From Candidatus Saccharimonadota bacterium (GTDB lineage: Bacteria > Patescibacteriota > Saccharimonadia > Saccharimonadales > Saccharimonadaceae), in contig JAEETK010000005.1 of assembly GCA_016290315.1 (NCBI GenBank), forward strand, positions 1 to 52,478: a DNA stretch of 52,478 nt. The letters are read 5' to 3'. Made by a program: the position numbers and the translations under genes. Below the pieces are notes generated by a model. It did not search any database. It saw nothing but the letters and a program-made list of their open reading frames with translations, and was not told where the DNA came from. Shown one piece after another: positions 5,684 through 39,204 of this stretch; position 1 is the first letter of the stretch, and the number at the start of each line of letters is the position of its first letter.

Positions 5684-6955
5684 ATGAGCAATGAAGGTTA
5701 CGTCAAAGTAGAGGCAGAAGCTACTATTAATAAAAATGGTCAAATAGTTGGCTGGAAGGATTTAGAAAGTGGCCCAGATTCAGAGTATTGGTCGGAAGCT
5801 TCGCTCAGTTCCATTGAAGAAAATAATAAAGAGCGTGCTAGGTTATTCACCAAGCTAGGAGGCGCAGCCTTGAGAATAGGGCCGATAGAGCCGAACAAAT
5901 ATTACCCGTATTCCGAAGATACTTCAAACTTACAAAAAGGCGACAAAGTCCGCGGCTTTAAATTTGTACCATACGACCGCAACGAAGAAAAGAAACTCGA
6001 GGAGCTAAATAGCGCCTTCGCAAGTAAAGCTGCGGTCGCCGACGAGTTGCGCATTAGGGGTAATAAGTCTTTCAATTACCGCGCAAAAGTACCGAAATCT
6101 TTCGAGGGGCAAAAAGATGCGGCACGGTTCTATATCGGGCCACTGGACTACAGAGAAACAACCAGTTACGAAGGAAAATTCGGCGATAATGGCAAAGGTA
6201 GATACAGCGAAAAGCATGAAAAAATTGTCAGAAAGTGCAAAGATGCTTTTTTGTCCCAGGATCGGAATGATGAAAATATTGAAGATAAAATCGCAGGCAG
6301 GATGCTAGAGGCCTTTTTCCATCCGTTAGTCCGAAGTGGTTTTTTTGATTCGCCCGATGGAGAACCAGCGGCAGCCATACTCACGAGCGATTACGATGAT
6401 TTTGTAAATAAAGCGGACTTTGCATTATTTATTCCCGTTGAAGGATTAGATAAAGACGGCAATACATGTATTGTGCATCAGCCAATTTGCCTAGATTTAA
6501 CTATTGGGACCGGAAAAGGCAAAGTTGGCAAAATCCATGAAAACTACGACAAGCGGCACGGTTTTACGGATATCGTTTACCCGTCAACCTGTTCTGGCGA
6601 TGCGTTACCAGAAATGAAGGATGTTCCGCATTTTGCTCTTTGTTTGCCTCGCGATAAAAGTGAGTTCTCTAGTTTTTGCGAAAGCCAAGCAAGTGGCAAT
6701 CTACCACCTAAAGAAATCGGCGATCTTATTTACTATGAGCTATTCCGTCAGGCTGAACAGTGGGCGGCCTACTATTCCAGATTAGACGGCGACGACAACA
6801 GACGTAAGGCAAATATATACATCAACTTATCTAGGTGTTTCCAAAAGAAGCTGGGAGTAATTGGCAAAAAATCAAACGGTAGCGTAAGGCTGGACGTACT
6901 CGACCAAAGACACCCTGGAGCCTTAAGGTTTATCCATAGTTACAGAACTAAGTAA
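5684..6955 (+). CDS. Large orphan cytoplasmic protein, 423 aa
   Basis: I do not recognise this protein. It is hydrophilic, rich in Lys, Asp, Gly and Tyr, and has no signal peptide or membrane segment. Residues about 245-290 contain NKADFALFIP, a spacer, then CLDLTIGTGKGKVGKI. The spacing of an Asp, a hydrophobic strand with an Asp-x-Thr, and a following Lys-rich turn faintly recalls a PD-(D/E)xK nuclease core, but the key acidic/Lys pair is not canonical, so this is only a hint. The start is fixed by AGGAG at 5671-5675, 8 nt before ATG. An overlapping ATG at 5680 is out of frame and closes at once. It stands alone. Confidence 0.65.
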   Translation: MSNEGYVKVEAEATINKNGQIVGWKDLESGPDSEYWSEASLSSIEENNKERARLFTKLGGAALRIGPIEPNKYYPYSEDTSNLQKGDKVRGFKFVPYDRNEEKKLEELNSAFASKAAVADELRIRGNKSFNYRAKVPKSFEGQKDAARFYIGPLDYRETTSYEGKFGDNGKGRYSEKHEKIVRKCKDAFLSQDRNDENIEDKIAGRMLEAFFHPLVRSGFFDSPDGEPAAAILTSDYDDFVNKADFALFIPVEGLDKDGNTCIVHQPICLDLTIGTGKGKVGKIHENYDKRHGFTDIVYPSTCSGDALPEMKDVPHFALCLPRDKSEFSSFCESQASGNLPPKEIGDLIYYELFRQAEQWAAYYSRLDGDDNRRKANIYINLSRCFQKKLGVIGKKSNGSVRLDVLDQRHPGALRFIHSYRTK

Positions 6956-6980
6956 GATTATCGCGACATGTTTTAGTTAT

Positions 6981-7011
6981 ATATAAAAAGAGCGGCCGCA
7001 TTGGCCGCTCT
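6981..7011 (-). terminator. Terminator of orphan cassette A
   Basis: A stem of about 9 bp, AGAGCGGCC / GGCCGCTCT, is followed on the minus strand by CTTTTTATAT. The T-run lies on the minus side, so it serves the gene at 7018. Confidence 0.88.
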
Positions 7012-7017
7012 GAGGCT

Positions 7018-7572
7018 TTAATCTACCGGAGCCGGTCTCACCGGCGCGTAGCAAGCAAGCATTCCGCGCGTAGCAATGAAGCCCCGTTCAAGTTCATTCG
7101 GAGGCTCGGGGGCCCAATCCCATTGCTTAAGCCGCTTCTCATAGAAGTCTGCACGGGCCTTAGCGTCGGGGCTATCCCACAAAAGCTCGCGAACAGTCAG
7201 ATTCTCATCTCCAATCTGATAATAGCCGAAAAGCTCATCGCAATTCGGCCAAATCGCGCGCGCGCTTTCTTCGACGCATCTCCAGGCAGTATCTTCAAGC
7301 TGCGCAAGTGTGTCGAACTTGGATTCGAGCTGCCCTGCAGATCGATAGAATCCCTCCTTCGACCACTCCATGTCATAATTTACATAGAGATAGTCTCCGA
7401 CGTCCATTGTGGCTTCTTCTTCATGGTCGCCAAATGACCGCCCCCTTTCAAATGCGTCCTTGGCTTTCTTAACCCTTCCAAGCTGACAATATGCCTCTCC
7501 GAGCTTTCTCGCTACGTCGATATACGCTAAGAATGCCGCTCTATAAAGCTCTAAGTTACGGCTGTGTTCCAT
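7018..7572 (-). CDS. Orphan cassette A: helical TPR-like protein, 184 aa
   Basis: No family is recognised. The N-terminal 45 residues form one plausible tetratricopeptide-like unit (LGEAYCQLGRVKKAKDAFERG); the rest is acidic and rich in Trp, Tyr and Glu. There is no signal peptide. The frame is open further upstream, but ATG 7572 is chosen because the exceptional Shine-Dalgarno AAGGTGGTGA lies 5 nt before it. The gene has its own consensus promoter and terminator and stands alone between unrelated units. Its Arg/Ala/Glu-rich codon content looks more GC-rich than that of nearby housekeeping genes (judged by eye). Confidence 0.65.
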   Translation of the reverse strand: MEHSRNLELYRAAFLAYIDVARKLGEAYCQLGRVKKAKDAFERGRSFGDHEEEATMDVGDYLYVNYDMEWSKEGFYRSAGQLESKFDTLAQLEDTAWRCVEESARAIWPNCDELFGYYQIGDENLTVRELLWDSPDAKARADFYEKRLKQWDWAPEPPNELERGFIATRGMLACYAPVRPAPVD

Positions 7573-7615
7573 TTTTATCACCACCTTCCTGACGAATAGA
7601 CACAACTCTAGGTAT

Positions 7616-7644
7616 ATATTACCATATTCGTCTTTGTTTGTCAA
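7616..7644 (-). promoter_or_regulatory. Promoter of cassette A
   Basis: On the minus strand: TTGACA (7639-7644), a 17-nt spacer ending ATATGG, and TAATAT (7616-7621). The leader is about 37 nt. Confidence 0.75.
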
Positions 7645-7764
7645 TATGCAACTCGTTACCATCGGAGCGCATCGGTGTTTATGGTATCGTATGCGTAATT
7701 TGGCGACTATGGCCACTAAAAGATCTTTTTATGAAAGAAGGTTGCGCAACATGTCTCATAGAGT

Positions 7765-7999
7765 ATTGGGCGAACCTCCAGAGGCGAATTCTACTCCGTA
7801 AATTAAGGATAAAAAACACACCCTGCGGGGTGTCTTTTTATCCTTAATGGCTGGGGATGAGGGATATAAACAATGCGCCGTTGTCGCAAGCGACCGGGCA
7901 TTGGGCGAACCCCCAGAGGCGAGCCCAACTCCGTTAGCGAAGAAACAAAAAACAGCCCTGCGGGCGTTTTTTATTTCTTCGTGGCTGGGGATGAGGGAT
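7765..7999 (-). repeat. Two direct repeats derived from the tRNA-Gln 3' end plus a long hairpin
   Basis: Units at 7765-7865 and 7900-7999 have the same order. Each begins (minus strand) with the last 18 nt of tRNA-Gln including CCA, then a hairpin with arms of about 20 nt, then a 35-nt block matching at 30 of 35 positions. The hairpin ends differ but stay paired (TTAAGGAT/ATCCTTAA in one, GAAGAAA/TTTCTTC in the other), which is compensatory change. The distal unit (tRNA copy at 7848-7865) lacks the rest of the tRNA. A 34-nt spacer between units forms its own hairpin around GTCGC-TT-GCGAC. The central stems with T-runs also look like terminators. Confidence 0.75.
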
Positions 8000-8056
8000 T
8001 CGAACCCCCGAATGGTGGGACCAGAACCCACTGCCTTACCACTTGGCGAATCCCCA
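7982..8056 (-). tRNA. tRNA-Gln (anticodon CTG)
   Basis: A full cloverleaf: acceptor TGGGGAT/ATCCCCA, D-arm with GGTAAGGC, anticodon stem GTGGG/CCCAC with loop TTCTGGT (anticodon CTG), and T-arm containing GGTTCGAATCC. Discriminator G and an encoded CCA (7982-7984) follow. The 3' end is duplicated downstream (see the repeat at 7765). Confidence 0.95.
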
Positions 8057-8068
8057 ACGGTCTTAACT

Positions 8069-8097
8069 ATTTTAATACAATCATTTCAAAAATGCAA
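8069..8097 (-). promoter_or_regulatory. Promoter of tRNA-Gln
   Basis: On the minus strand: TTGCAT (8092-8097), 17-nt spacer, TAAAAT (8069-8074), ending 12 nt before the tRNA. Confidence 0.65.
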
Positions 8098-8169
8098 AAG
8101 AGCGTTATTTCAGAATATGGTATGATAGAATAGAATAAAAGCATAAGAACTACAAACAGGAAAACTAGG

Positions 8170-39135: not shown

Positions 39136-39142
39136 AGATGAA

Positions 39143-39204
39143 ATTAAGTCCTCTTTGAGGTCTTTTTTCATCTGTTGAGAAGCGGTTCGAGCCGCCTCTT
39201 TTTT
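39143..39204 (+). terminator. Tandem terminators after tRNA-Leu
   Basis: First: AGTCCTC / GAGGTCT (one mismatch) then T6. Second, 10 nt on: a GCGG/CCGC stem with flanking GAG/CTC pairs, then T6. Confidence 0.75.

Follow-up and report, generated by a model that had tools for sequence, protein, structure and literature searches.

What do two copies of a tRNA 3' end, each followed by a hairpin, record behind the tRNA-Gln gene of a member of the Saccharibacteria? The window analysed here is a stretch of 52,478 nucleotides, contig C23 of the Saccharibacteria assembly G000; the sister genome is G171, with a contig published as MAG RUI495. A preliminary description of this DNA had read the two copies as a duplication in which compensatory change kept a hairpin paired, and had added that integration at a tRNA attachment site also leaves a duplicated tRNA end. 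Based on the analyses reported here, we suggest that the two units are modules inserted serially at the tRNA-Gln 3' end and the remnant of a cassette array, with a recombinase acting in trans and the core of the unit as its site; we put the probability of this reading at roughly two in three. Within this reading, an array of inserted modules is highly probable, while the assignment of the unit core to the recombination machinery, for which its place and shape argue, falls a little short of even odds. Little is known about how Saccharibacteria, with their very small genomes and their life on other bacteria, acquire genes; such arrays would be a route of gene exchange between them.

The tRNA-Gln locus and its two units

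The locus comprises the following features (window positions):

7982..8056, minus strand: tRNA-Gln(CTG), the anchor (ARAGORN and Rfam tRNA)
7982-7999, minus strand: 18-nt 3' end of tRNA-Gln, ATCCCTCATCCCCAGCCA, the repeated segment (sequence comparison)
7848..7981, minus strand: proximal complete unit of 134 nt, consisting of terminator, P1/P2 segment, P3 core and tRNA-Gln 3'-end copy
7938..7981, minus strand: proximal terminator hairpin, starting at CCA+1, stem CGAAGAAA.../...TTTCTTCG
7904..7937, minus strand: variable P1 5' strand and P2 region, covering most of the 35-nt block (7900-7934)
7871..7903, minus strand: P3 core hairpin CAATGCCCGGTCGCTTGCGACAACGGCGCATTG; one side has two bulges, and the terminal stem varies
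7848-7865, minus strand: second copy of the tRNA-Gln 3' end including CCA, the right end of the proximal unit
7765..7847, minus strand: distal truncated unit with a G171-type terminator and P1/P2 segment, cut within the core at 7765
7803..7847, minus strand: distal terminator hairpin, directly after CCA, stem TTAAGGAT.../...ATCCTTAA
7757..7764: deletion scar, from flanking DNA to distal unit (blastn of the window against G171 locus L064)
7018..7716, minus strand: flanking gene beyond the far end of the array, conserved in position in G171
7847..8125, plus strand: spurious 92-aa open frame (MAGDEGYKQ...), antisense to unit and tRNA, over non-coding conserved elements

The preliminary description had placed the repeat correctly, with all of its features on the minus strand, and much of what it reported was borne out: the 18-nt tRNA-Gln end is duplicated together with CCA (7982-7999 and 7848-7865), the two 35-nt blocks agree at exactly 30 of 35 positions, and both units encode the peptide ASGGSPN. 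The proposed unit length of 100-101 nt, however, has to be revised, as the full proximal repeat measures 134 nt and the distal copy is cut within its core at 7765. A second conserved half (7863-7903), with a hairpin of its own, sits after the 35-nt block and runs into the tRNA-end copy. Both terminator stems pair over their whole length, and pairing of the P1 stem is weak in the proximal copy. The flanking gene at 7018..7716 has no Pfam match.

The outer stem had been taken for one duplicated stem with compensatory change; instead, each stem comes from a module of its own. The terminator of the proximal unit matches the one behind tRNA-Gln in G144 (L097) at every position, and the distal unit shares 93.4% identity over 91 nt with units of G171 (L064). 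Because the two units match different genomes, we reject a local tandem duplication with compensatory change. Positions 6900-7756 of the window are 90.6% identical to G171, and this homology ends 8 nt before the distal unit; after 7756, the sequence jumps into the middle of a unit at 7765. At the position of the scar, G171 retains additional genes and units: beyond the homologous flank, its array runs gene, unit, second gene, second unit, third gene, with two units flanking a single-gene cassette at this same locus. Therefore, the matches to G144 and G171 and the jump after 7756 point to two modules that differ in origin, and to a deletion scar, in the window.

The unit behind other tRNAs and its predicted fold

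The proposal that the 35-nt block might occur near other tRNAs in relatives held well beyond chance. With the 136-nt G171 unit as query, 42 of the 45 genomes of the genus gave matches, some of them through the tRNA-end part only, and 75 unit copies were collected in 61 sequences. A same-strand tRNA end lies 42-339 nt upstream of 49 of the 71 full copies, and other full copies are at contig edges or within cassette arrays. The tRNA species ahead of units are Gln(ttg) (14), Ser(gga) (10), Gln(ctg) (8), Ser(cga) (7), Lys(ctt) (6), Glu(ctc) (2), Arg(ccg) (1) and Arg(tcg) (1); these counts are not independent events, and all genomes are draft assemblies, many of them broken at these repeats. Behind every one of these tRNA species the core is conserved, and the flanking segments vary with the tRNA. 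The right end of a unit is the T-stem/acceptor 3' strand of its own host tRNA, of which 12-18 nt are copied. The left segment pairs better with the right end of its own tRNA than with those of others (mean score 8.0 vs 6.0; Wilcoxon p 5e-10, for copies that are not independent), and by eye the left segment in other genera resembles the reverse complement of the T-arm of the host tRNA.

Pairing was assessed with a structure model built on sequences of the genus. In 52 aligned units, 86.4% of the cells of a P1/P2/P3 three-way junction are paired, compared with 34-52% when the partner is slid by 1-3 columns, and cells with double changes number 194 against 79.5 in shuffles. P3 alone is paired in 95.8% of cells over the 52 sequences, with double changes at 8 of 16 pairs. 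Thus, the claim that pairing is under selection stands as far as conserved pairing goes, but the covariation sits in the P3 core hairpin and the P1 stem, which the preliminary description had left aside. The covariance model that it had suggested as a check finds the proximal unit at G000:C23:7849-7940 (E 5.8e-14, with this sequence in the training set) and also reaches other genera behind tRNAs, giving weak matches in three (g15, g24, g41) and one match in g2. Seven matches outside the genus were inspected, the g2 match not among them: five lie directly behind an annotated tRNA-Glu or tRNA-Leu, a sixth follows a tRNA in which bases are masked, and the seventh follows a tRNA 3' end located where its contig begins.

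Nearly all units open with a hairpin at CCA+1 that differs in sequence and has arms that pair. We considered this hairpin as a feature specific to the unit and rejected the idea, because an ordinary tRNA-Leu in the window, which has no unit, carries the same kind of long-stem terminator from CCA+1 (39136-39176). Most simply, the CCA+1 hairpins would therefore be tRNA terminators, renewed by each module that is inserted.

A conserved three-way junction with covariation could also belong to an RNA, and the unit might be a gene-less cassette encoding a small structured RNA, for instance on the opposite strand, where the complement of the tRNA 3' end would be followed by the P3 hairpin and a stop at the terminator, and which would act on the tRNA or its processing. 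Such a transcript would match the host tRNA 3' end by its complement, and a promoter might include GATATAAAC, whose position upstream of the core on the opposite strand is constant. However, no consistent -35 box is seen by eye, and the terminator precedes the core on the tRNA strand. Compared with Rfam, the unit gives only tRNA matches above the gathering score and no family even at a permissive threshold. Moreover, P3 and the terminal stem, read in either orientation, contain 6 G-T and 1 A-C among some 780 cells; so few G-U or A-C cells would be unusual for RNA helices that vary, and as a soft argument this near-absence fits a structure formed by DNA. We regard the RNA explanation as unlikely.

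Three further observations concern units in unusual settings. Units without a tRNA in L057, L054 and L059 are in islands whose genes resemble restriction-modification and helicase genes by eye, and which may be defence islands. In L061 (23-520), three tandem 105-nt units are overlain in antisense by an open frame of 165 aa, which consists of repeated 35-aa blocks and could be annotated as a repeat protein. Finally, identical tandem triplets of the unit are present in G243. More generally, arrays and units account for repetitive spurious frames near tRNA genes.

Cassette arrays and candidate enzymes

Upstream of several tRNA-less units is DNA that has only the final 5-9 nt of a tRNA at its end. 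Tracing such ends revealed arrays whose single-gene cassettes share their borders, TTCCTTATAGATTGTTAATGCCTGAACAATTCGCCCCCACCA behind tRNA-Met, -Ala and -Val and ...GTTAAAGCCTGCTTAATTTTGCCCAGCCA behind tRNA-Gln. The Met-type end pattern has 45 matches in 15 of 45 genomes and the Gln-type pattern 11 matches in 9 of 45, with no match to either pattern reversed; in the family, such ends occur in two genera. The 41 cassettes mapped have a median length of 958 bp (range 564-2308), and in 29 of them the largest open frame is antisense to the tRNA. Arrays in the genus hold 3-7 cassettes of about 1 kb each, for example:

L163 2162-10074, L169 1281-6725, L167 4648-7785 and L162 6412-9595: arrays of 3-7 single-gene cassettes, behind tRNA-Met or tRNA-Ala where the contig includes the anchor

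Among the products of the cassette genes are methyltransferases, an acetyltransferase, a peptide deformylase, a short-chain dehydrogenase, a serine hydrolase, a peptidase S51, and NUDIX and HD proteins. The genome of the window itself has cassette ends behind tRNA-Met and tRNA-Ala. Given the cassettes of G171 at the same locus and the arrays across the genus, the window is therefore best seen as a deletion-scarred remnant of a tRNA-anchored cassette array. Arrays behind tRNA-Met and tRNA-Ala contain cassettes and no units; therefore, the unit is not required for cassette insertion as such.

Cassettes change position between genomes. A methyltransferase cassette that is inside an array in G152 lies directly behind tRNA-Met in G217, and another cassette, the last of the G152 array, lies directly behind tRNA-Met in G000 and is followed by the same DNA in both. 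In other words, G000 has tRNA-Met, the shared cassette and the flank, and G152 has extra cassettes on the tRNA side. A LysE-like cassette is common to G144 and G152 and, at Gln loci, one cassette is common to tRNA-Gln(ttg) of G136 and the G171 array. Pairs of shared cassettes are about 95% identical or more across the gene and right end and, where the neighbours differ, identity collapses at the tRNA-like GCCCCCACCA; on the left side, identity climbs only beyond the first 5-15 nt after CCA, which differ. From these breaks on both sides, crossing over would thus take place in the tRNA-like end or just 3' of it. A GTTAAWG motif lies about 20 nt upstream of the cassette border ((G)CCCCCACCA or CCCAGCCA) and is not the crossover point, because the sequence after it stays with the cassette. 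A conserved peptide at cassette ends, WWGRIVQALTIYKEDI, looked partly coding and was rejected on account of stops and the lack of a conserved start. In reverse complement, the right ends of cassettes, such as L162 7396-7440, read W(W/L)G(R/K)IxQALTIYKEDI, and in part of this stretch third positions change more; stops occur here as well, and a conserved start is lacking.

The sequences compared give good support to serial insertion, to sharp borders, to cassettes changing position and to extra cassettes on the tRNA side; serial site-specific insertion is strongly supported. In the mechanism that we propose, modules and cassettes would enter one after another at the tRNA 3' end, with crossing over in the terminal ~10 nt of the tRNA or immediately 3' of CCA. 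Each would begin at CCA+1, usually with a terminator, so that the tRNA transcript would still end properly, and the tRNA-like 3' end at its far end would restore the target; in the window, a deletion would then have left two units. The reaction would be catalysed by a tyrosine recombinase acting in trans, and the three-way-junction core may be used as a folded recombination site in the manner of attC, with a P1 stem that replicates the host tRNA's T-stem/acceptor sequence.

As to the enzyme, no recombinase could be linked to the arrays among the 45 genus genomes surveyed. Tyrosine recombinases (PF00589) are present in 39 of the 45, nearly all as one Xer-like protein of ~310 aa; this single Xer-type protein is the best candidate, as a guess. 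Xer was not found in the assembly of the window, where only a different tyrosine recombinase occurs, on a probable contaminant contig. That contig (L246, G000:C74; assembly contamination 8.43%) carries an integrase and the tandem repeat RSDRRSPTGHMVKPYQAAAP. Serine recombinases (17/45 genomes) and Y1 transposases (4/45) are too patchy to be the common enzyme, and second tyrosine recombinases (G144 and G236, among few genomes) are absent from other cassette-bearing genomes. The cassettes inspected hold accessory genes and no integrase, and the units of the window are non-coding. Viral contigs contain no exact match to the core or to a cassette end, and phage carriage is thus not supported. In L095 (5797-7800), an integrase-bearing element adjoins tRNA-Arg(TCG); ahead of the resident unit, at ~7641-7672, lie a displaced T-arm and 3' end.

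These data also bear on whether the loci are ordinary tRNA-gene islands, that is, integrase-bearing elements that were inserted and then lost, leaving displaced tRNA fragments behind. The idea that the tRNA end had served for integration is right in that its copy marks insertion there, but modules without an integrase, and not an ordinary island with its own, occupy the site. That tRNA 3' fragments mark island ends and that L095 has one integrase-bearing element beside tRNA-Arg and a unit agree with islands; the conserved core between fragments common to many tRNA species, cassettes mostly of one gene without an integrase and arrays of up to seven do not, and cassettes with the same gene and sharp borders at differing positions and in differing genomes largely refute this explanation, which we consider very improbable. 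Least probable is a selfish palindromic repeat, REP-like or moved by Y1 enzymes, that favours tRNA ends and multiplies by tandem duplication: the bulged hairpin, the dispersed copies and the identical triplets in G243 would suit it, but Y1 transposases occur in only 4/45 genomes, the 12-18 nt of host tRNA copied at the right end exceed the need of such enzymes, the two units of the window are of different lineages and not tandem copies, and copies are mostly confined to tRNA and cassette contexts.

Comparison with known systems

Insertion of modules at a tRNA 3' end, with a 3' fragment copied at the far border, is shared with tRNA-gene islands (Islander) and tycheposons, and the displaced fragment by which islands are recognised is present here as the 18-nt copy at 7848-7865 and as shorter copies at other borders. 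Islands recovered by Islander, however, contain an integrase and have size peaks at 13.6 and 39.9 kb; three or more in tandem are seldom found (4 in 3919) (PMC4383910). By contrast, the modules described here are 0.1-2 kb long, have no integrase and form arrays of up to seven.

Small modules shuffled without a recombinase of their own are known from Acinetobacter plasmids, where small gene modules between pdif sites are moved site-specifically and this is attributed to host Xer (PMC6449649). They are the nearest case of integrase-less modules. They differ in that pdif sites are dif-like sites on plasmids, while the sites here are tRNA 3' ends on chromosomal contigs and a role of Xer is a guess.

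The arrays resemble integrons, including CALIN arrays that lack intI, in having small single-gene cassettes with shared ends, positions that differ between genomes and extra cassettes beside a fixed anchor; the cassette genes, too, resemble those of integron cassettes. At least two sites less than 4 kb apart with exchangeable cassettes, as asked of an integron, are found here (3-7 cassettes, median 958 bp); in sequence, the sites are not those of attC. When folded, an attC site shows extrahelical bases, a central spacer that stays unpaired and a terminal structure that varies, and its sequence is conserved only in AAC and GTT (PMC2727003). The unit core, in the fold predicted from covariation, is likewise a hairpin that bulges on one strand and varies in its terminal stem, but the borders are CCCCCACCA/CCCAGCCA-like and have no AAC...GTT boxes with the crossover. 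Unlike in integrons, the anchor is a tRNA 3' end and the genes mostly face the tRNA. Surveys of integrons demand IntI or clusters of attC (PMC9668308); none of the four tyrosine recombinases of the genus that were compared with the IntI model TIGR02249, from incomplete assemblies, reaches the integron integrase cut-off (50.5 to 129.2 bits, cut-off 265).

In the open-licence papers searched, we found no earlier description of such arrays, which probably also explain why assemblies of these genomes frequently break at these sites. As a tentative proposal, with the odds somewhat against it, Saccharibacteria may have an integron-like form of gene capture, in which tRNA 3' ends are the platform, folded three-way-junction DNA adapted to the tRNA is one site, a host recombinase, perhaps Xer, is the enzyme, and shuffled cassettes provide accessory genes to reduced genomes. 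The core shares the look of attC without its boxes and no enzyme at the level of IntI is among the four tested, so the arrays behave as a cassette platform but, by these features, are outside the integron family. Such a system would show that integron-like capture can arise with another anchor and probably another enzyme.
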